Shown in pieces: positions 1-9,605 of a DNA stretch of 9,605 bases. Within the stretch, counting starts at the first letter, position 1. Each line of letters begins with the position of its first letter. The notes under the pieces are model-generated. The model worked only from the letters and a program-made list of their open reading frames with translations. It was not told the origin of the DNA and ran no database searches. Source of the stretch: Candidatus Woesearchaeota archaeon (GTDB lineage Archaea; Nanobdellota; Nanobdellia; Woesearchaeales; GW2011-AR15). The translations under genes and the position numbers were made by a program. The stretch spans positions 1 to 9,605 of the forward strand of contig JAMPXQ010000047.1 of NCBI GenBank assembly GCA_023701075.1. The letters run 5' to 3'.

Positions 1-307
1 GTTCGAATTCACATCCCCCTTTGCCGCAGCCTACAGAATATTTATATTGGGTGCATGTGCCGCATGATCCACCGCAACCATCACCGCCGCATTCTTTGCC
101 AGAGCAATCCGGTACGCATGGCGGCGGTCCATCATCATCATCATCTCCTTTTCCCCCACCTGGACAATTACTGCAACAGCAAGGACTACAGCTAGAGGGA
201 CACGATGAAGGAGTACATGGCCCATAACCACCGGCTAACGATTCTGGAAGGATAGATATGAACGTAACTAGTAACACGAAATATAAAAATAAGTTAGAAT
301 ATTTCAT
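1..307 (-). CDS. Secreted cysteine-rich protein, 3'-truncated by the window edge
   Basis: An open frame starts at ATG 307 and reads leftward to base 1 without a stop, giving 102 residues of a longer protein. Residues 1-25 form a Sec signal peptide: Lys2, a hydrophobic run (about 6-20), then a signal peptidase I site after S-L-A25. The remaining 77 residues hold 15 cysteines (31, 36, 40, 43-45, 48, 64, 68, 73, 78, 82, 85, 94, 99), a five-Asp run encoded by (GAT)5, and the segment GKECGGDGCGGSCGTC at 70-85. From memory, similar GKxCGxDGCGGxCGxC repeats occur in secreted proteins of deltaproteobacteria and some DPANN archaea; this is unverified. The ATG overlaps the stop of the upstream gene (ATGA) and a GGTG-rich stretch lies 5 nt before it, so translation is probably coupled. 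A disulfide-stabilised surface protein is likely. Function is unknown; metal binding is possible but unsupported. Confidence 0.8.
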   Translation of the reverse strand, partial: MKYSNLFLYFVLLVTFISILPESLAGGYGPCTPSSCPSSCSPCCCSNCPGGGKGDDDDDGPPPCVPDCSGKECGGDGCGGSCGTCTQYKYSVGCGKGGCEFE

Positions 308-1398
308 TTTGGCACCACCATTTTTACTTCAGGTCTTGTAATTAAATATATCTGATAGGCATTGTCTGATAAGAAAAAATCACCAGACCCATCACCATAT
401 TTATTTCTAATAGCAAATTTAGTATCCCTTGAACAGCTTGAATCTGTTTGTATTGTATCATCCAAATAAAGGGAATTGTACTCATTGAATTTAGAGAGCA
501 ATGCTTCATTTCTTCTCTCTTGATATAAATCTAACATCACTTCCATACAGGGGTGTAATGAATTTGCAGTCATTAATTCATTATTTTCAACCTTGTCAAG
601 AAAACTATTACTAAGAAGTGTTGCTTCATAGGCAGATGTATCTTTCCCTAATGCCTTGTCATAATTATAGTCTGACCAAATTAGCCAACATTGGACACCA
701 AACTTATGTCCATTGTTTGTTTGAGCAATTTCAAAAGCTCTTTTGCCAATTTGTTCGCCGACCGTTAGGATTTTATTGATTTTTGACTGGTCTTCTCCAT
801 TTTCTTTAAATAAAGGAATAGAATCATAAAAAGCAACTGACATCATTGCTGTGTCTTGTACATATGCGTACTTTGTACGATTGGATATTTCCTTTATCCA
901 ATCATAATCCACATAATTCAAAACTATTTCTCTTACATCTTTCTTAAGTCTTGATTCATCCGCAAGGACATTTTTACCCTTGAGCATATTGAATGCCCTT
1001 AACAAAGGATGAACCATAGTAACCAGTTCCCTATGAGGATCATCATATATTACTCGAGATTCTATGTCAAGATATATTTGATTTTCAAGTTCTCTTATCT
1101 CTTTGATTAATTTCTCATCCTGAGTCAAATCATAGATAGATGCTTTAGCCAAAAGTGCCCATATTCTAGTTGATATCCCTATTGTGCCTTTTTTAGTACC
1201 ATCACAATTCATAACTCCATAGTAACCTTTGCCATCATCATTTGCTGACATTTTATCAATAAGATTAATGCTTCTTTCTGCCAAATCAGCATTTGACAGG
1301 TTAGATGTACTTGTAAAATTAAAGAAAAGCCATCCAACAGCAAATAGTGAAACTACAACTAGACTTACAATTAACCATCTTTTTTCCATAAAACCCAC
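304..1398 (-). CDS. Signal-anchored all-helical protein, possible alpha/alpha-toroid fold
   Basis: Not recognised as a named family. The 364-residue protein has a basic N-terminus and one hydrophobic segment (about 8-27) with no obvious cleavage site, so it is probably an N-terminal anchor with the rest outside the cell. The remainder looks all-helical. Segments such as the one around W77 (TRIWALLAKASIYDLTQDEK) and the end (SDNAYQIYLI) align by eye with the two lipoproteins encoded divergently at 1502 and 2687, suggesting a distant third paralog. Start choice: GTG at 1398 lies 26.5 nt from the centre of the TATA box at 1421-1428, matching the other leaderless genes here; an in-frame ATG at 1389 is the alternative and would shorten the protein by three residues. 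It is the first gene of a unit with the cysteine-rich gene. It could be an (alpha/alpha) barrel carbohydrate-active or scaffold protein, but no catalytic motif is evident. Confidence 0.8.
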   Translation of the reverse strand: MGFMEKRWLIVSLVVVSLFAVGWLFFNFTSTSNLSNADLAERSINLIDKMSANDDGKGYYGVMNCDGTKKGTIGISTRIWALLAKASIYDLTQDEKLIKEIRELENQIYLDIESRVIYDDPHRELVTMVHPLLRAFNMLKGKNVLADESRLKKDVREIVLNYVDYDWIKEISNRTKYAYVQDTAMMSVAFYDSIPLFKENGEDQSKINKILTVGEQIGKRAFEIAQTNNGHKFGVQCWLIWSDYNYDKALGKDTSAYEATLLSNSFLDKVENNELMTANSLHPCMEVMLDLYQERRNEALLSKFNEYNSLYLDDTIQTDSSCSRDTKFAIRNKYGDGSGDFFLSDNAYQIYLITRPEVKMVVPK

Positions 1399-2686: not shown

Positions 2687-3790
2687 ATGAAAGATAAACG
2701 ATTGAGTTTTAGGGTAGTTATAGTTTTGATGTTCATAGTCTTGATGAGTTCTTGTAAGAATAAACAAGAAGAGATTGATACGGTAATTATGTCTAAAGCT
2801 AGTCAGGATAAATATGGCAATGCCATAAGGCTAGGTGGAGAGTGGTTTTTAGCAAATCAGGATGAACAATTTTTGCATTACATATATGACACAAAAACAA
2901 AAGGACATCCTGCCTCAACTCACCCCTTGAGAGAGATGGGTGCACTTTATGCAATAAATGACCTTTATGGATATACAAAAGATCAAAGATATCTGAATCT
3001 ATCCTACAAAGGTTATGCCTATTTCAGCCAATATTTCACAAAGTCCGAAAATTATCTACTAGTGAACATAACACCTGATGCTACCAAGCTTGGTTATAAT
3101 GCATTCATGATACTTAATATTATTCCTATAAATATAAAGGATAAAGAAAATGAGCTGGATTATCTTGCAGAGGGCATACTCTCAATGCAAAAGGATTCAG
3201 GTGAATACAGAACTTTCTTCTTTATTGAAAGGGAGACAGGAGTTGATTATTACCCTGGCCAATCTATACTGGCATTGATGAGATTATATAGCTATGACAA
3301 ACAAGAAAAGTATATCGAATCAGTCAAGAAATCTCTTGGATATTATCCTTTGAGATGGAACCAGGACCCTTCGTTTACTTTCGTTCCATGGTATACAAAA
3401 GGATACTATGAGTATTATCAGCAGACTAATGATGATTTTGTCAGGGAATTCATATTTGAGATGAACGATTTTCTTGTATCAGGATTCAGCGCAGATGGGA
3501 CATGCAATGGGCCAATAGTGAATAGGGATATCTCGATTGCGGCATATGCTGAATCTGTTGTTAAGGCTTATAAATTAGCAAAATTCAATAATGATACCTA
3601 TCGGCAAGAATGCTACTCAAGATTTATTAATAATGCCGCAGATATTGTTGTGGATATCCAGATCCAGAATACGACTGATGTATTAGAATTAGGTGGATTC
3701 CCAAACAGCTTGGGAGAGATAAGGGTTGACAATAACCAGCATGCAGTGATGATGCTGATAGATGCAAAGAGAGAAGGCATCATAGATTGA
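2687..3790 (+). CDS. Putative lipoprotein with alpha/alpha-toroid-like helical repeats, copy 2
   Basis: A 367-residue paralog of the preceding gene. The N-terminus has basic residues, a hydrophobic stretch (about 9-20), then M-S-S-C23, a lipobox-like site. Matching segments include FLANQ near 46-50, YIYD near 58-61, LREMGALYAI near 74-83, GYTKDQRYL near 89-97, YPGQSILALMRLYSYDK near 189-205, and NNQHAVMML near 350-358. The invariant R-x-x-GAL-[WY] and QH positions are kept, so both copies probably retain the same fold and perhaps related substrates. It lies 24 nt downstream of copy 1 with no TATA box between, so it is probably cotranscribed; the ribosome site is weak. Its stop lies only 14 bp from the stop of the convergent pilin operon. 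Function is unknown. Confidence 0.85.
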   Translation: MKDKRLSFRVVIVLMFIVLMSSCKNKQEEIDTVIMSKASQDKYGNAIRLGGEWFLANQDEQFLHYIYDTKTKGHPASTHPLREMGALYAINDLYGYTKDQRYLNLSYKGYAYFSQYFTKSENYLLVNITPDATKLGYNAFMILNIIPINIKDKENELDYLAEGILSMQKDSGEYRTFFFIERETGVDYYPGQSILALMRLYSYDKQEKYIESVKKSLGYYPLRWNQDPSFTFVPWYTKGYYEYYQQTNDDFVREFIFEMNDFLVSGFSADGTCNGPIVNRDISIAAYAESVVKAYKLAKFNNDTYRQECYSRFINNAADIVVDIQIQNTTDVLELGGFPNSLGEIRVDNNQHAVMMLIDAKREGIID

Positions 3791-3804: not shown

Positions 3805-4698
3805 TTAGATGATTTCGATCCTGGCATTGTTTTTTGAATCCGGCAGTGCATCTATTGTATTCCTATCAGTATAACAGTCCAGGATGTTGATGTTCTCGGC
3901 GACATCTTCATCAAATGTGATTTCAGTCATGCCTTTTGCTGCTGCCGCATTCACCTTGAATATAACCTTGGCGAAATTCCCGCTTCCTGAGACGCAGTTC
4001 TTCCCGAGGTAACCGAAAGAGAACCTTCCTGGATAGACCATGTCTGACTGGAAATTATACTGTATGAACATCTTGTCGAAAAGAGGGTTCTTGTATCTGT
4101 ATTGAGGTTTGTCAAAGACAACTGCTTCAGAACTCTTGTATGTCAATTTCTCAGGATCGTATTTCAAGGTGAACCTTGCACTCTTTGTGTCTTTCACACA
4201 GTGCAGGCTGACAAAGACTTCGAACTGTCCGTTGAGTCCGATCTTGGTGACATTTGGGTCAATGCTTGCCTGTGTCCTTGATATCCTCACCCCGTCATAG
4301 TTCCTCGAGACGCAGTGCTGCGTCGTATTATAATTAATGTTCTGTATGAAGCTCCCTTTGACTGGTATTGGGAACGCAGTGAAGTATTCCAGATAGGTCT
4401 TGTTGTTCTCTAGGACTGTTATGGTGAGTTCAGAGTCATCTATCCTCATCTTATAGTTTTTCCCGAAGATTTTGGGAGGGATGTCAAATTTCCTGACATA
4501 GTTGTTGTTCATTGAATTTGCGATTGAGACTTCATTGACAATGCTGTCTGCAAGCTGCTTGAGTTCAAGCACCTCCTGCTTCTTGCTTAATTCAAAAAGC
4601 CTCTGGTTTATGATATAGATGAACCCGCTCAAAGATAGGAATACCAGGCTGAATATCAGGATGAATTCAAAAGACACTTGCGCCTTAGTCTGTCTCAC
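3805..4698 (-). CDS. Class III pilin-like protein with C-terminal cohesin-like domain
   Basis: A 297-residue protein with two parts. The N-terminus KAQVSFEFILIFSLVFLSL (5-23) matches the archaeal class III prepilin pattern: a basic leader, Q7 at the cleavage position, S9, E11 (the equivalent of pilin Glu5), then a hydrophobic helix. A coiled helix (30-65) and a small beta region (to about 125) follow. From about 140 to 285 the pattern fits a cohesin-like beta sandwich: FEVFVSL (159-165), ARFTLKYDPEKL (174-185), FSFGYLG (226-232), GNFAKVIFKV (240-249) and ITFDEDV (260-266). Four cysteines (129, 167, 235, 275) could form two disulfides. GTG 4698 is chosen because GGAGG lies 8 nt upstream and it overlaps the preceding gene by 14 nt. 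As the last gene of the pilin operon it probably encodes the display or adhesive subunit. The cohesin call rests on pattern, not on a profile search. Confidence 0.8.
   Translation of the reverse strand: MRQTKAQVSFEFILIFSLVFLSLSGFIYIINQRLFELSKKQEVLELKQLADSIVNEVSIANSMNNNYVRKFDIPPKIFGKNYKMRIDDSELTITVLENNKTYLEYFTAFPIPVKGSFIQNINYNTTQHCVSRNYDGVRISRTQASIDPNVTKIGLNGQFEVFVSLHCVKDTKSARFTLKYDPEKLTYKSSEAVVFDKPQYRYKNPLFDKMFIQYNFQSDMVYPGRFSFGYLGKNCVSGSGNFAKVIFKVNAAAAKGMTEITFDEDVAENINILDCYTDRNTIDALPDSKNNARIEII
3830..3835 (+). terminator. Possible oligo-T termination site for the lipoprotein unit
   Basis: A run of six T on the plus strand lies 40 nt past the stop at 3790, inside the 3' end of the convergent gene. 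Archaeal RNA polymerase can terminate at oligo-T tracts without a hairpin. The convergent gap is only 14 bp, so termination must occur inside the opposing gene. The evidence is weak. Confidence 0.3.
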
Positions 4699-5596
4699 AG
4701 GTCTTGCCTCCTACATTGAAATCTGGGGAACATATCCCTCTGCCGAGATATCCCGCACCATGGTCATGGGTGCTCATCTTATTGACTATTGAAGGCTCTG
4801 TCCTGCTCCCTTTATCTTCTTTCCATGCTGTTGTTATGACCCCGAAATTCCCCTTGCTTCCGCTCTCATAATCAAAGGCATATAATCCGTACACAGGGAT
4901 ATCTACTATCCTAGGAGAAATGCTTTTCCAGGAGATTATCCTCTCCTTGTCTTCAAAGAAATAGCTCACGTCAGCCTTTATCTCTATTGTCCAGGGATCT
5001 TTCTGGCTGACATCGGTTATATTCACTTTGAATTCATGCACATTCATCCCGAGGTCTGAAAACACTGTCTCTATCTCAGGCTTGAGGTCTGCCATGACAT
5101 ACTTTTTAGTTATGCATGGTGAACCCATGCAGTTTATTTTTTTTAGGTCTATCATGTTTCCGTTGGATTCCATGATGGTCCCGTTTTGTATGAGGTTTTG
5201 CAGGTTGTTTATCAAAGGCCTTTTGAGGACTGTGTTCAAATAGCTGTCTTTCCTATAATATTTTGATAGGCCGATGAGCGCATTCTTCGAGCTTACATAT
5301 ATTATCTTATCGAAATAATTGTTCTCCATCTCCTGCACTATGGAATTCATCGCTTTAACTTTCGCCCTTGTCACATCAAGGTCATTTTCTTTGAGGGTGG
5401 TATTGGAGAACATGTTGGATATGGCTATGAATAATATGACGATGAGAAGGCTTGTTATAGAGAAAAAAATCCCTATCTTTTTCATTTTTTGGGTCGGAGA
5501 CATGCCCCGTATTATTTTTCGTATGCATTCTTGGTATGGGAAAACTCTTATTTTTCCAATACCTTTACTGTTTTGGAGGAGTCTCATTTTTCCCAT
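4685..5596 (-). CDS. Single-pass membrane protein of the pilin operon
   Basis: A 303-residue protein, not recognised by name. About 40 basic, mostly cytoplasmic residues precede one transmembrane helix (about 42-60: FFSITSLLIVILFIAIS region). A helical stretch rich in N, K and Y (75-140) follows, then a beta-rich ectodomain (165-240) and a Gly/Cys-containing tail. Extracytoplasmic cysteines are at 156, 161, 289 and 300. It lacks a pilin-type cleavage motif, but its layout of N-terminal helix plus globular ectodomain resembles minor-pilin partners. Start: ATG 5596 has GAGGT 6 nt upstream; ATG 5587 would give an ATGA overlap with the upstream stop but has a poorer site; starts at residues 32 or 38 would give a more usual short leader. 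It overlaps the neighbours on both sides, so it is almost certainly cotranslated with the pilins. A membrane anchor or assembly factor for the pilin complex is inferred. Confidence 0.8.
   Translation of the reverse strand: MGKMRLLQNSKGIGKIRVFPYQECIRKIIRGMSPTQKMKKIGIFFSITSLLIVILFIAISNMFSNTTLKENDLDVTRAKVKAMNSIVQEMENNYFDKIIYVSSKNALIGLSKYYRKDSYLNTVLKRPLINNLQNLIQNGTIMESNGNMIDLKKINCMGSPCITKKYVMADLKPEIETVFSDLGMNVHEFKVNITDVSQKDPWTIEIKADVSYFFEDKERIISWKSISPRIVDIPVYGLYAFDYESGSKGNFGVITTAWKEDKGSRTEPSIVNKMSTHDHGAGYLGRGICSPDFNVGGKTCETD
4707..4711 (-). promoter_or_regulatory. Strong Shine-Dalgarno for the cohesin-like pilin gene
   Basis: Minus-strand GGAGG lies 8 nt before the GTG at 4698, inside the coding end of the preceding gene. 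It supports this GTG as the start and indicates translation initiation within the polycistronic mRNA. Confidence 0.75.
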
Positions 5597-6111
5597 AGGT
5601 TAACCTCTATCAGGTATGGCCCAAAATAAGTCACTGCACCTGTGGCCGGTGTCTCGATGTATCCGAAAGATATTTTTTTTCTGGATATCAATGCATTGGT
5701 CTTCTCTTGTCCTGTATCAGAATATATCTGGACATTGTTTATCCTTAGTTCTACGCCATATAGGTCTTGTCTTATCAAAGGCAGGAAGCTTATGAAGAGC
5801 TCTCTTGCTTTGTCCTGTCTGTTCAATACATATAGTTCAGTCATATGGTCAAGGATTGTCTGTTCATAATTCTTTGTGAGTGCGCATGTCTCCTGGAGTT
5901 TTGCTTGCGTGCAGACACATTGGTTGCATAGATCGCTAATTTTGGTTCTTGAAATTATATCCAGCAGGTTGTCTGCAACTACTGGAAGCGGGGTCTCATC
6001 CCTTGGTTTGCTTCCTGATGATATTATCATGAATCCTATAGATAATATGATTGCTGCAAAGATTGCATCGATTATGAAAAAATATCCTTTTCTGCTATTG
6101 ATACGGCTCAT
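5584..6111 (-). CDS. Pilin-like protein with atypical prepilin motif
   Basis: A 175-residue protein. The N-terminus SRINSRKGYFFIIDAIFAA has a basic leader ending K-G, then aromatic and hydrophobic residues with an Asp at +6 after the glycine, and a single hydrophobic helix to about residue 31. This is pilin-like, but it lacks the class III Gln and has Asp where Glu5 is usual, so processing by a prepilin peptidase is likely but unproved. The ectodomain has an early cysteine cluster (62, 65, 67, 76; C-x2-C-x-C) and no other cysteines, then a mixed alpha/beta region ending NLWEK. Start: ATG 6111 gives an ATGA overlap with the upstream gene; an in-frame TTG at 6117 has AGGTG 7 nt upstream and is a real alternative. 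Probably a minor pilin of the five-gene complex. Confidence 0.75.
   Translation of the reverse strand: MSRINSRKGYFFIIDAIFAAIILSIGFMIISSGSKPRDETPLPVVADNLLDIISRTKISDLCNQCVCTQAKLQETCALTKNYEQTILDHMTELYVLNRQDKARELFISFLPLIRQDLYGVELRINNVQIYSDTGQEKTNALISRKKISFGYIETPATGAVTYFGPYLIEVNLWEK
5603..5607 (-). promoter_or_regulatory. Shine-Dalgarno for the membrane-protein gene
   Basis: Minus-strand GAGGT lies 6 nt before the ATG at 5596, within the last codons of the upstream pilin gene. It favours ATG 5596 over the in-frame ATG at 5587. Confidence 0.55.
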
Positions 6112-6539
6112 TTGCAAAGTAATACACCTAAGTTGACTATCTGCCGGTTATAGATGACTGGTTTTGTGAGAAGTATGGAATTTTTCGATTGGCAGTGCGG
6201 CTGGACATTGAAGACCGGTCCGCTCTCGCATGGCTGATTGCCGAAATATGCTTGGTTGGTCTTTTCAAATGTTGAGAACTGTGCAAATATCTGGTTTCCA
6301 TTGCTTAGATATATGCAGGCATCTGCCCCAAGGTCCTTATACATCTCTTTTTTTATCAGGCTGTCTACCTTTATCCCTTTCACATAATGTTGGCTCACCT
6401 TGTCCATTATGAGCTCGCTATCTACATCAAAAGTCTTCTGTTCTATACTGTCTTTCATCCCAAAGAAGAATATTGATAGTGCAAAGAGATATATGACAAA
6501 AGTCATGATGAAATCCATGCTTATGGCTTGGCCCTTCAC
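6108..6539 (-). CDS. Small class III-like pilin
   Basis: A 143-residue protein. The N-terminus MKGQAISMDFIMTFVIYLF has the K-G-Q leader of class III prepilins followed by a hydrophobic helix (about 8-27). The acidic residue is Asp, one position later than usual (Q4 as +1, D9 as +6). The rest is a short ectodomain with four cysteines (75, 104, 116, 142). The GTG start at 6539 is well supported: GGTGAT lies 5 nt upstream and GTG overlaps the preceding TGA by 4 nt. It shares the D+6 variant with the next gene, which sets these two apart from the E+5 pilins at the two ends of the operon. Probably a minor pilin; archaellin is less likely given the size, the cysteines and the absence of other archaellum genes. 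Confidence 0.78.
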   Translation of the reverse strand: MKGQAISMDFIMTFVIYLFALSIFFFGMKDSIEQKTFDVDSELIMDKVSQHYVKGIKVDSLIKKEMYKDLGADACIYLSNGNQIFAQFSTFEKTNQAYFGNQPCESGPVFNVQPHCQSKNSILLTKPVIYNRQIVNLGVLLCK

Positions 6540-7036
6540 GCCTTATCACCGACCAACAGGACAAAGAACTCATTATTGTTCTTGAAAGATCGCACCTGGA
6601 AATTCTTCGTCCCCCTGGAGAACATATGTTCTGAGAAGCATCTGCATTCAGCTCCGTCAAGACACTCGAAGTTGCATTCTATGATTGTCTCCGGAAGGAG
6701 CGGGACATCTGATTCTATAAGGAGTTCCTCTTCACCGTTGGCGCCTAGGAACTTGAACGCCAGATAATGCTCATTGCTCTTATTCAGTATATACATGTTC
6801 CCTATCCCTGGAGGCATATCGACACTGAAGAGCATCTTTGATGGCGGCCCATAATAATGGACTTTGTTTGCTTTGAGGAGTATTAGGCTAGAGACTTCAT
6901 TGATGCGGTTCTTCATCAGCTTATCGCTGGATTCAAAGACAAAGCTCCTGAACAATAAAGATGCAGGGATTATTATCATCAGAGAAACTGCGATTATCAT
7001 CATGTACTCTACAGAAATCTGCCCTCTCTTTCCCAT
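6536..7036 (-). CDS. Class III pilin-like protein, first gene of the pilin operon
   Basis: A 166-residue protein. KRGQISVEYMMIIAVSLMIII (3-23) is a textbook class III prepilin signal: basic leader, Gly5, Gln6 as mature residue 1, S8, E10 at +5, Y11, then a hydrophobic helix. After the helix comes a coiled stretch (30-60), then a beta-rich head ending with a cysteine cluster C121-x3-C125-x5-C131-x-C133. Start: ATG 7036 is chosen because the TATA box at 7059-7066 is centred 26.5 nt upstream, which predicts a leaderless mRNA. The frame stays open much further upstream, but that extension would run antisense through the TRAM gene and is not credible. Its stop overlaps the next start (GTGA). Pilins of this class are membrane-inserted, cleaved before Gln and assembled by type IV pilus ATPase and platform proteins, none of which are in the window. 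Confidence 0.87.
   Translation of the reverse strand: MGKRGQISVEYMMIIAVSLMIIIPASLLFRSFVFESSDKLMKNRINEVSSLILLKANKVHYYGPPSKMLFSVDMPPGIGNMYILNKSNEHYLAFKFLGANGEEELLIESDVPLLPETIIECNFECLDGAECRCFSEHMFSRGTKNFQVRSFKNNNEFFVLLVGDKA
6545..6550 (-). promoter_or_regulatory. Shine-Dalgarno for the small pilin gene
   Basis: Minus-strand GGTGAT, complementary to the 3' end usual for archaeal 16S rRNA, lies 5 nt before GTG 6539 and inside the final codons of the upstream gene. It fixes the GTG start and points to coupled translation. Confidence 0.7.
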
Positions 7037-7238: not shown

Positions 7239-7595
7239 ATGTACGGAAATAACCCAACACCTCCTGTCAAAGAAGGAGAAGAATTAGACGTGAAGATTGA
7301 AGCCATTGGAGACAAGGGCGACGGCATTGCCAAGAAGAACGGTTTCGTTTTGGTGATTCCAAATACCCAGGTCAACGATGAGGTCAAGGTCAGAGTGACA
7401 AAAGTCCTAAGGAAAGTAGGATTTGCAGAAGTCATCGGAAAAGCTGAGGCAAAGCCAGCAGATGATGATGCAAAAGAAGCTCCAAAACCAAAAGCATCAA
7501 AGAAAAAATCCAAGAAAGTGGAAGAAGAGATGCCAGAGGAAGAAGAGCAGGTCGAGGAGCTGTCTGATTCCGAAGATTTCGGAGATGAGCAGTGA
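7239..7595 (+). CDS. TRAM-domain RNA-binding protein with long charged tail
   Basis: A 118-residue protein. Residues 9-68 form a TRAM domain, an OB-like beta barrel: VKEGEELDVKIEAIGDKGDG, then GFVLVIPNTQVNDEVKVRV and VGFAEVIG. Small TRAM proteins are widespread in archaea, bind RNA, and in methanogens have been described as cold-responsive RNA chaperones; stand-alone forms are usually only about 60-75 residues. Here an extra 50 residues (69-118) follow: a Lys/Ala/Pro section, then a strongly acidic end rich in Glu and Asp. The tail is probably disordered and could modulate RNA binding or contact partners. The start is set by the AGGTG at 7225-7229 and a strong TATA box. The stop overlaps the ThpR start (GTGA), coupling this protein to an RNA-end-processing enzyme. 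Confidence 0.92.
   Translation: MYGNNPTPPVKEGEELDVKIEAIGDKGDGIAKKNGFVLVIPNTQVNDEVKVRVTKVLRKVGFAEVIGKAEAKPADDDAKEAPKPKASKKKSKKVEEEMPEEEEQVEELSDSEDFGDEQ
7581..7588 (+). promoter_or_regulatory. Shine-Dalgarno-like site for thpR
   Basis: GGAGATGA, close to the archaeal consensus GGAGGTGA, lies in the last codons of the TRAM gene just before the GTG at 7592. It supports the GTG start with a 4-nt overlap. Confidence 0.55.
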
Positions 7596-8077
7596 GACTG
7601 TTTGTCGCGATTGACGCTTCAAAGGAAGCGGTTTCTTATTTTTTTTCTTTAGGCTCGTTGTTTCCTCATCCAGTAGATTCATTTCATCTGACATTAAAAT
7701 TCTTGGGCGAAGCAGATCCTGATAATACCATTCAGATATTAGAGAAAATAAGATCTGATAGTTTTGAACTGGAGTTGGATTCGTTAGGCGCTTTTCCAAC
7801 TGAAGGTGAAATCAAAGTTGTCTGGATAGGCCTAAAGAAAGAAGAGAAGCTGATGGCTCTTCAAAAGAAGATAGATGATGCATTGCCTTCATTTAGGAAG
7901 GATTTTGATTTCCATCCGCATATCACTCTTGCAAGGCCTAATACCGATATTGTCTTGCCAGATATCAAGATAAAACCATTGATGTTCAAGGTAGTTTCAT
8001 TCAAGCTGTATCAGAGCACATTGACAGATAAAGGCCCTAAATATTCTGAGATAAGATCATTTAGTTTGGATAAATAA
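7592..8077 (+). CDS. thpR: RNA 2',3'-cyclic phosphodiesterase (LigT/2H family)
   Basis: A 161-residue member of the 2H phosphoesterase superfamily, known for opening 2',3'-cyclic phosphates at RNA ends to 2'-phosphates and for reversible 2'-5' ligation of tRNA halves in vitro. Both catalytic H-x-T-x motifs are present: HLTLKFLGE (H32, T34) and HPHITLARP (H110, T112). The N-terminus RLFVAIDAS is typical of the family. The length is slightly below the usual 175-190 residues, with no core motif missing. The GTG start overlaps the TRAM stop by 4 nt. Cotranscription with a TRAM protein suggests a joint role in RNA processing or repair; that functional link is inferred. The 84-bp gap to the convergent gene holds a weak hairpin (8114-8129) and oligo-A tracts. 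Confidence 0.93.
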   Translation: MRLFVAIDASKEAVSYFFSLGSLFPHPVDSFHLTLKFLGEADPDNTIQILEKIRSDSFELELDSLGAFPTEGEIKVVWIGLKKEEKLMALQKKIDDALPSFRKDFDFHPHITLARPNTDIVLPDIKIKPLMFKVVSFKLYQSTLTDKGPKYSEIRSFSLDK

Positions 8078-8161: not shown

Positions 8162-8851
8162 TTATAGTATCTTTAGAAGTTCAAAGACAAGCCGTTCTGA
8201 TGCCCTGAGCAGCTCATCCGGGTTTGTCCCTTCGACGACAATGCAGCCCATCTCTTCTTTTATAGCAGTCTCATTCCCAAGCCTTAGGAGGAGTACTTTT
8301 GATGTGCTTGTCACATTTGCACAGGTGATTATGGGTGCATCTGTCTTGTTGTTCGCCCTGGTTATTGAGGCTTTTAGAGGTATCCTATATATCCTTCCTA
8401 TAATCTTTGCAATCTCAACACCAGAGATTGCGACGCTTGAAGGGTCTTGAGGATCCATGGTGAGATACACTCTTCTTGCGCCGTTCACTAGTATCTTTGG
8501 TGCCACTGATTCATTCCTTGAATTTTTAGGAGAGGATATGTTCATCACTTCATATGGTGTGTGGTGGAAAGAGATGTTATATACTGCGCTCTCGCCGCTC
8601 ATCTGGTTCTTTATGACAACAAGGCTCTGCCAATAGTTCCCTGCCTTGAAGAAGACATATTGATTATAAGTCACAGTATCAGCCGGGAGAGATTCTGGAG
8701 CAGGTTTTGCATTCAGCATCACAAGCCAGATTATCCCAAAGACTCCTAAGATGGCAAGGATGAATATTATGAGCACTTTGCTGTCATTCTTCGATTCAGG
8801 CTTTTCTGTAGTCTGGGTCCTTTTCTTTGGTGCTGTCTTTTTCTTTGCCAT
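8162..8851 (-). CDS. Single-pass membrane protein with conserved two-cysteine domain, copy 2
   Basis: A 229-residue protein: a Lys-rich cytoplasmic tail (1-25), one transmembrane helix (about 26-46) and a large outer domain with six N-x-S/T sequons (N92, N104, N113, N168, N179, N193). The C-terminal block ITCANVTSTSK (175-185), VLLLRLGNET (186-195), MGCIVVEGTN (201-210) and DELLRASERL (212-221) resembles a family of hypothetical DPANN proteins as I remember it; this was not searched, and no function is known to me. C177 and C203 are exactly 26 residues apart, as in the upstream paralog, and probably form a disulfide. Start ATG 8851 is preceded by AGGTTGAT, which overlaps the upstream stop; the gap between the genes is 11 nt, so they are cotranscribed. 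A surface or secretion-related role is inferred from topology only. Confidence 0.83.
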   Translation of the reverse strand: MAKKKTAPKKRTQTTEKPESKNDSKVLIIFILAILGVFGIIWLVMLNAKPAPESLPADTVTYNQYVFFKAGNYWQSLVVIKNQMSGESAVYNISFHHTPYEVMNISSPKNSRNESVAPKILVNGARRVYLTMDPQDPSSVAISGVEIAKIIGRIYRIPLKASITRANNKTDAPIITCANVTSTSKVLLLRLGNETAIKEEMGCIVVEGTNPDELLRASERLVFELLKIL

Positions 8852-8862
8852 CTGAAATCAAC

Positions 8863-9459
8863 CTAGTTTATATCTATGCCATATGTGAGATACACTATTG
8901 AATCTCTTATCCTGATTATGTCATTTTGAGCATAGTTTATTGTCACACAGCTGCCTTCTGAAGAGACGCTGGTTGCCGTGGAATTCCTCAATATGACGAC
9001 TGGGACAGTAGCTGTTGCATTCCTGCAGTCAGCGACAGGAAGGACAGTATATCCTTCTTTTTGTGACGTCACGGATTCATAGAAGAACTTGCTCTTTGCA
9101 ATGTTTGTCCTGATGTCAAACCTAAGGAAATCAATCATGCTCAAGTCTCCGTTCGGATCAAAAGACAGGTAGAAATAAGGCGCATTCATTATTGTGTCCT
9201 TTGACTGCTTGTCCATGTTCAAAAAAAGCGTGTCTGGAAGATAATACGCAGTGAACTTGTCTTTTCCGCTCACTTCAAAATACTGGTTGCCGAAAGTGTC
9301 TGTCTTTGGCTCGAACTTGAATTTGCCTGAAGGGTATGTCTTTGTGATTGCGCTTGAGTTTCCTCCGTAATAGACAACTACGCTTCCTACAGTAGAAAGG
9401 ACAAAGATGACGAGTATCAAAATGACGAATGTCTTGTTCTGCTTGCGTTTCTTTTTCAT
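8863..9459 (-). CDS. Single-pass membrane protein with conserved two-cysteine domain, copy 1
   Basis: A 198-residue protein: basic tail (1-9), transmembrane helix (about 10-31), and an outer domain. It is a diverged paralog of the next gene: APYFYLSFDP (93-102) parallels ARRVYLTMDP, and DCRNATATVPVVILRNSTA (144-162) parallels the downstream CANVTSTSK/LRLGNETA region. C145 and C171 keep the same 26-residue spacing, with 27 residues after the last cysteine versus 26 downstream. Sequons are at N34, N147 and N159, two of them in the shared region. The leucine- and acid-rich end of copy 2 is replaced here by an isoleucine- and arginine-rich segment. The ATG at 9459 sits 26.5 nt from a TATA-like box, so the message is probably leaderless. 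Function is unknown. Confidence 0.83.
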   Translation of the reverse strand: MKKKRKQNKTFVILILVIFVLSTVGSVVVYYGGNSSAITKTYPSGKFKFEPKTDTFGNQYFEVSGKDKFTAYYLPDTLFLNMDKQSKDTIMNAPYFYLSFDPNGDLSMIDFLRFDIRTNIAKSKFFYESVTSQKEGYTVLPVADCRNATATVPVVILRNSTATSVSSEGSCVTINYAQNDIIRIRDSIVYLTYGIDIN

Positions 9460-9569: not shown

Positions 9570-9605
9570 CAATATGGCAAGTTGCCACAATATGGCAAGT
9601 TGCCA
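9570..9605. repeat. Two perfect 18-bp tandem repeats with palindromic core
   Basis: The unit CAATATGGCAAGTTGCCA occurs twice head to tail (9570-9587, 9588-9605) and stops exactly at the window edge, so more copies may follow. Each contains a perfect 13-bp palindrome, TGGCAA-G-TTGCCA (9575-9587, 9593-9605). The unit length is a multiple of three, and frames are open on both strands: plus reads M-A-S-C-H-N repeated from ATG 9574; minus reads W-Q-L-A-I-L twice and then stops at TAA about 20 nt further on. It could be a protein-binding iteron-like site, a repeated start region, the 3' end of a leftward gene, or a contig-end repeat. Confidence 0.75.

Follow-up and report, generated by a model that had tools for sequence, protein, structure and literature searches.

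The window, which is the whole 9,605-nucleotide stretch of DNA analysed here, constitutes contig C105 of a 157-contig, 1.26 Mb archaeal genome that is 76% complete. It holds five minus-strand genes, P1 to P5 (Table 1), successive members of which overlap by 4, 4, 13, and 14 nucleotides (nt). These encode a set of type IV pilin-like proteins, one of which, P5, ends in a cohesin domain, and several relatives of the archaeon have genes with dockerin-like calcium loops close to the same set. It is probable, if by no means assured, that the cohesin of P5 holds giant dockerin-tagged proteins, predicted to be secreted, on a pilus. The source archaeon is related to the Woesearchaeota; a search with P5 finds named relatives in archaeon GW2011_AR15 (AR15), archaeon SI047_bin43, and metagenome-assembled genomes of Candidatus Woesearchaeota.

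Gene Layout and Translation Signals

A preliminary description of this DNA had claimed five overlapping genes behind one leaderless promoter, with internal starts served by Shine-Dalgarno sequences embedded in the gene upstream. The coordinates and the overlaps are borne out. Shine-Dalgarno-like motifs within the upstream gene are visible by eye before P2 (GGTGAT), P4 (GAGGT), and P5 (GGAGG); for P3 the claim holds if translation begins at the TTG codon at 6117, which lies 7 nt from the candidate motif AGGTG, the ATG lying 13 nt from it. Upstream of P1 a TATA-like box, TATTTAAA, begins at -30 and no Shine-Dalgarno sequence was found by eye, a combination that fits, and is consistent with, the leaderless start that had been proposed. 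A start of P4 at 5596 is plausible. The first ~37 residues that it adds are weakly conserved in the alignment and modelled with low confidence, and a start at 5485 instead would leave a gap, not an overlap, with the preceding gene.

Table 1. Positions of the five cassette genes, the cohesin domain, and two further genes in the window (aa, amino acids).
Feature	Position	Strand	Remarks
P1 prepilin-like protein, 166 aa	6536..7036	-	ATG; predicted class III signal KRG/QISVE; first gene; PF04021
P2 prepilin-like protein, 143 aa	6108..6539	-	GTG, overlaps P1 stop by 4 nt; KG/QAISMD
P3 prepilin-like protein, 175 aa	5584..6111	-	ATG, possible TTG at 6117; KG/YFFIID
P4, 303 aa, class-III-like site without acidic +5	4685..5596	-	ATG; two possible starts, 5596 and 5485
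P5 cohesin-bearing prepilin, 297 aa	3805..4698	-	GTG; predicted class III signal, long helix, beta part, C-terminal cohesin
Cohesin domain of P5	3901..4230	-	Pfam match, residues 157-266; fold match ~141-297
364 aa protein, hydrophobic stretch at N-terminus	304..1398	-	blastp relative in genome G009
Cys-rich protein start, truncated by contig end	2..307	-	N-termini compared by eye

The Pilin-Like Proteins P1 to P4

The alignments of all five proteins show a class III site, with K or R and then G, A, or S before a hydrophobic helix, and by this signal P1 to P5 are classed as archaeal type IV pilin-like proteins whose cleavage is predicted. The acidic residues stand where the preliminary description had placed them, with E at +5 in P1 and P5 and D at +6 in P2 and P3. 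They are well conserved (the window's own sequence is counted in the alignments of P1, P2, P4, and P5). All 20 P1 sequences carry E or D at +5, and the window's P1 matches PF04021 at 25 bits, above the cut-off of the Pfam scan. D at +6 is found in 14/15 rows of the P2 alignment (A7), and the Asp of P3 (residue 15, +6) is invariant in 9/9 (alignment A6). DUF7287 is matched by four of the 15 P2 rows (best E 5.7e-9), the window's P2 not being among them. The P3 of the window is a short version; in many relatives the protein reaches about 600-1400 aa. A vWA domain scores above the cut-off in three of seven long relatives scanned, and P3 relatives have weak Pfam matches to DUF7262 (E 0.013) and DUF7288 (E 0.097). 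Nothing beyond weak DUF matches came from a Pfam scan that covered P3 N-termini, short P5 proteins, and one P4. One cassette elsewhere, at 5901-16908 (plus strand) of locus L156, contains three P3-type proteins in tandem, of 1363, 1402, and 906 aa.

P4 has no acid at +5 and had been labelled a non-pilin. Its class-III-like site makes that label too strong, and it was rejected: every one of the 27 sequences in the alignment has G, A, or S at -1, and K or R occupies -2 in 26 of them, the lone exception being the window's own P4, which reads K-I-G with I at -2. On its N-terminal sequence P4 is here called pilin-like without the acid. Its model, with a predicted local distance difference test score (pLDDT) of 78.9, has a predicted helix at residues 34-117 followed by an alpha/beta part. 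No match at E<=0.001 was returned by a Foldseek fold search with P4, and none at E<=0.01 by PDB profile searches with P1 to P4. The window's own P2, P3, and P4 do not match DUF7287, DUF7266, DUF7262, or DUF7288, presumably haloarchaeal pilin-like families. An archaellum was considered and rejected, Pfam and NCBIfam scans of P1 to P5 at E<=1 listing no archaellin or Fla family.

The Cohesin Domain of P5

The class III signal of P5 scores 19.1 bits in Pfam, below the cut-off of 23.7, and E occupies +5 in all 16 rows that have a letter there in an alignment of 17. The AlphaFold2 model (pLDDT 84.5) comprises a long helix (residues 5-62), a beta part, and a C-terminal domain whose homology and predicted fold are both those of a cohesin. 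PF00963 matches it at 42.7 bits against a curated cut-off of 24.1, and cohesins make up the first 48 of the best 50 structure matches listed, ahead of other folds. The earlier statement that nothing in the set could be recognised does not stand: it had missed this domain, and relatives of P2 and P5 match DUF7287 and DUF7266, respectively, the latter in 5/9 P5 rows (best E 3.2e-5). In alignment A9 of P5, PF00963 is matched by 8/9 members at E<=1. A full-length P5 occurs in 10 of 352 genomes of the order, and Pfam recognises the cohesin in eight of them. In genome G001, P5 does not end with the cohesin, which is followed by DUF4215 in four stretches and by a LamG domain.

Conservation of the Cassette and Pilus Machinery

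P5 is matched in 44/60 relatives, the P1 profile in 162 of 279 genomes of the phylum, and the P5 profile in 211 of 352 genomes of the order, the window's own genome being included each time. Sixty external loci were picked by P1 or P5 matches, 20 from the P5 search of relatives and 40 from the P1 search of the phylum; the presence of P1 or P5 in them is by choice, that of P2 to P4 is not. Six of these loci come from outside the order, and several that do not have the full set end at a contig end. The P1 and P5 profiles merged when iterated, and both were scored as one pilin type. By these iterated profiles, the full set (two P1/P5-type pilins with P2, P3, and P4 on one strand) is present in 33/60 loci, including two of the six out-of-order loci (L165, L168), and the recurrence in relatives that had been suggested as a check is thereby confirmed. 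The order pilin-pilin-P2-P3-P4 prevails (24 of the 33 full sets, and two more with a duplication); P3 and P4 are swapped in two, four have pilin-P2-P3-P4-pilin as in the window, and one has P2-P3-P4-pilin-pilin. Neighbouring genes overlap or lie <=5 nt apart in 107 of 135 pairs, counted from longest open-reading-frame starts, a choice that favours overlap.

A search for a pilus ATPase and platform gene nearby, the second check, failed in the window, where neither was found, and succeeded in relatives, where an ATPase accompanies 24 of the 33 full sets (29/60 loci in all), PilA-like genes occur in 25/60 loci, and TadC genes are also frequent in the loci holding the set. The window's own genome has the machinery on other contigs: C117 carries an ATPase, two TadC genes, and a PilA-like gene together, C140 a second ATPase with two TadC genes, and C153 a peptidase A24. 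"PilA-like" is a label taken from the start of the protein, and Pfam gives no class III match for the one on C117. An archaeal type IV pilus system, in the sense of an ATPase and TadC encoded with pilins, thus appears to be present in relatives, and the suggestion of a co-encoded minor-pilin-type set has held, the set recurring often in the company of these genes. It stays a conserved minor-pilin-type set even if the cohesin binds nothing.

Archaeal pilin sets have been surveyed by Makarova, Koonin and Albers (2016; PMC4858521), where, in the parts consulted, nanoarchaeal ATPases fall into two clades and cognate nanoarchaeal pilins for clade 4F could not be identified. That the present cassette supplies the missing pilins of clade 4F was considered and not kept, the Pfam hints being of PilB3 type instead: the ATPases of C117, L098, and L185 have a good T2SSE match and a weak PilB3_C match. 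The window's own genome also contains, at 8440-9658 of contig C87 (L055), a second partial set with P1-like, short P5-like, and P2-like genes and no P3 or P4, which adjoins another VirB11-type ATPase gene.

Dockerin Genes and Their Distance from P5

A dockerin-type gene lies <=14 kb from P5 in six of the ten genomes with a full-length P5. Pfam dockerins are found at 1.4 kb in AR15 (G002), 5.6 kb in G003, 2.1 kb in G005, and 1.0 kb in G055, the last having seven dockerin matches in all; the AR15 dockerin was missed by the loop motif and caught by Pfam. G001 had seemed to have no dockerin (PF00404 at E<=0.001), a result overturned by a loop motif in the gene after P5, 1.6 kb away (Pfam E 0.1). 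G009 has two dockerin-like genes farther down its contig, at 12.7 and 13.6 kb, with Pfam E values of 1 and 0.035. As to the remaining genomes, G359 (L098/L186) has a large subtilase frame that bears no more than half loops at either end; in G004 the contig breaks off within a large gene, the second one after P5; in the window's own genome (G000) the dockerin is on another contig than P5; and G374 is considered below.

The dockerin of the window's own genome, on contig C86, occupies residues 1025-1070 at the C-terminus of a 1079 aa Cys-rich protein, scores 28.9 bits in Pfam, above the cut-off, and is of type I with both calcium-loop repeats visible. By eye, the truncated Cys-rich gene at the start of the window looks paralogous to a Cys-rich gene on C86 that precedes the dockerin gene there by two genes; its protein gave no blast pair with the low-complexity filter on and a 50-bit floor. 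The 364 aa protein beside it is related to the gene directly after the G009 cohesin pilin (blastp 27.7% over 314 aa, E 2e-28).

Co-location of dockerin and full-length P5 was compared with that in genomes whose P5 is short. Among genomes with a Pfam dockerin, the two are close in 4/5 with a full-length P5 vs. 0/12 with a short one (p 0.002; this and the following p values are optimistic because the loci are not independent lineages). In most of these 12 genomes P5 and dockerin are on different contigs; two further genomes of the 19 with a Pfam dockerin, G040 and G057, have no P5 match and were excluded. The loop motif occurs in 5/9 full-length-P5 loci vs. 0/53 short-P5 loci spanning 812,568 bases (p 2e-5). 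For G009 this count uses region L169, which extends further along the contig and replaced the first-fetched L035; with L035, which has no motif, it becomes 4/9 (p 2e-4). The motif was widened by two letters after G009 had been seen, and the unwidened motif matched the same five loci. The window's own genome is excluded from the count; scored as a miss, it gives 5/10 (p 4e-5), or 4/10 with L035 (p 4e-4). Away from this cassette, cohesin or dockerin matches were also found in the order on G023:C125, G045:C7, and G057:C140, and in G023 and G057 cohesin and dockerin share a contig, a few kb apart or less.

Across genomes the dockerin is kept while the rest of the protein varies, from PD40/DPP-IV-like repeats (G055), LamG and Kazal domains (G003), and MopE motifs (AR15) to PQQ-like repeats (G009) and a subtilase (G359). 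These proteins begin with signal-peptide-like stretches, as judged by eye. Another protein of the G009 dockerin cluster, 2227 aa long, combines subtilase and vWA domains (L169, 3377-10060, minus strand); it lies next to a 1311 aa Cys-rich protein with a Hint/intein-like stretch seen by eye. Outside the cohesin clade, LamG is found in L042 and L044, where long proteins take the place of P5, and with vWA in the long P3 the cassette there carries predicted adhesin-type domains in cis. The cohesin clade likely replaced such adhesive domains, grafted on subunits, by a cohesin that would hold separately secreted dockerin proteins; replacement by a cohesin socket fits both the variable cargo and the neighbouring dockerin genes.

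A Proposed Cohesin Socket on a Pilus

In the proposed mechanism, a prepilin peptidase, probably A24, would remove the class III signals of P1 to P5, and the type IV pilus ATPase with the TadC platform would assemble them as a minor-pilin complex on a PilA-type filament, probably at the tip or in priming. P5 would expose its cohesin outside the cell, where secreted dockerin proteins, Cys-rich and in part with lectin-like or protease domains, would attach to it in the presence of calcium, serving as exchangeable adhesins. In a broader form, about which we are more hesitant and which stands a little short of an even chance, the cohesin on a minor pilin would be a universal socket of DPANN archaea, one conserved five-protein tip serving any dockerin-tagged adhesin, lectin, or protease. 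If true, attachment to hosts or partners would be swapped by gene exchange rather than by pilin evolution. The central claim, that P5 binds one named dockerin, is testable with two recombinant domains.

Several observations weigh against a display of dockerin proteins by P5. G374 has PilA-like, P1, and full-length P5 genes beside an ATPase, yet no dockerin motif in 19.9 kb; this genome was added as a new test after the pattern had been seen, with a negative outcome. The P5s of G359 and G374, the most divergent, have no Pfam cohesin even at E<=1, so the domain is assigned there through the P5 profile alone; post hoc, these two are also the genomes in which the stretch covered shows no intact dockerin. 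Scored over the whole protein, the dockerins of AR15 (17.4 bits) and G005 (20.1 bits) fall below the Pfam cut-off of 22.9, which they exceed by the scoring of the Pfam genome search, and those of G001 and G009 are weak. In the window's own genome the single dockerin match at E<=0.001 is the one on C86 rather than on the contig of P5; this threshold would miss weaker dockerins, as G001 and G009 show. Peptidase A24 was found in seven of eight genomes searched, being absent from the matches in G005. Finally, in the single-contig genome of AR15 the ATPases are far from the operon, and the machinery is not adjacent in the window's genus.

Part of this evidence suits an ordinary minor-pilin set in which the C-terminal domain of P5, a beta-sandwich with the fold of a cohesin, has a structural or sugar-binding role and does not bind dockerin, the nearby dockerin-like loops being calcium-stabilised segments of large surface proteins that serve some other function. 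Fold alone proves no function, and the empty surroundings of P5 in G374, the two P5s that Pfam does not recognise, and the dockerins below the cut-off all agree with it. It is nevertheless unlikely, given that cohesins come first among the listed matches of the window's P5, that co-location was seen in 5 (or 4)/9 loci vs. 0/53, and that the genome yields a single match each for cohesin and dockerin at E<=0.001. A second alternative, that the proteins form the pseudopilus of a type II-like secretion system, with P5 aiding the capture and export of dockerin-tagged cargo and not its display, appears improbable. The type II tip pseudopilin GspK has no acid at +5, a trait P4 shares, and no PilA-like gene is seen in L031 or L032, loci from the window's own genus; against this, PilA-like genes occur in the relatives counted above and beside ATPase and TadC on C117, and the cargo proteins have signal-peptide-like starts of their own. 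Very improbable is a membrane-anchored receptor that forms no filament and tethers dockerin proteins to the cell surface, for, despite the single predicted helix anchor of P5 and the archaeal cohesin-dockerin pairs outside cellulosomes reported in the parts consulted of PMC9012536, E at +5, the class III site, and the co-occurrence with ATPase and TadC point to assembly into a polymer.

Relation to Known Systems

The cassette resembles archaeal type IV pilus loci as described in the consulted parts of PMC4858521 in having several class III signal proteins with a VirB11-type ATPase and TadC, and minor pilins with large adhesin or S-layer-like proteins nearby. Unlike those loci, it has a cohesin, a word absent from the main text of that paper, and the five-gene set is not described in the main-text parts consulted. 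With the DUF7287, DUF7266, DUF7262, and DUF7288 families it is connected through relatives of P2, P5, and P3, weakly so for DUF7262 and DUF7288. A non-cellulosomal cohesin is known from Archaeoglobus fulgidus (PDB 2xdh); what sets P5 apart is that its cohesin is fused to a class III-signal protein encoded within a pilin operon. Cellulosomes (type I/II) share a cohesin domain and a dockerin with duplicated calcium loops. Unlike them, the window's own genome has P5 as its single cohesin match at E<=0.001 (in a genome 76% complete) and no multi-cohesin scaffoldin was seen, so that a cellulosome scaffoldin was rejected; nor does any of the dockerin proteins scanned, a subset per genome, have a glycoside hydrolase domain among its listed matches.

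Type IV pili and cohesin-dockerin coupling are each known, and the new element is the proposed cohesin socket on a pilin set. A study of methanotrophic archaea reviews archaeal cohesin-dockerin proteins and reports that binding of archaeal pairs was verified, the word "pilin" being absent from that paper (PMC9012536). Excerpts of other reports describe pili genes and transcripts in ultra-small groundwater cells (PMC9938205) and adhesion roles of PilB1-C1 and PilB3-C3 in Haloferax (PMC6491452). A literature search found no report of a cohesin-bearing pilin and no paper joining the two systems, most subscription journals lying outside its coverage, and a search on DUF7287 found nothing. The present data join these systems and define a pilin cassette across an order of mostly uncultivated small archaea, whose pili are believed to serve cell-to-cell contact (PMC9938205). 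On nanoarchaeal pilin sets the published census of archaeal pili, in the parts consulted, says little (PMC4858521).

Neighbouring Genes

Two lipoprotein-like proteins of 386 and 367 aa, neither with a convincing Pfam match, are encoded on the opposite strand (1502-2662 and 2687-3790, plus strand), in the interval that separates P5 from the 364 aa gene. On the other side of the cassette, a TRAM-domain RNA chaperone-like gene, below the NCBIfam cut-off (7239-7595, plus strand), is overlapped by an RNA 2',3'-cyclic phosphodiesterase gene that scores above it (7592-8077, plus strand). Next, on the minus strand, come two genes in tandem (8162-8851 and 8863-9459), whose products have a hydrophobic stretch at the N-terminus and match no family convincingly. 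A 17-base direct repeat, with copies at 9571 and 9589, lies at the contig end (9571-9605), and the assembly possibly broke there because of it.

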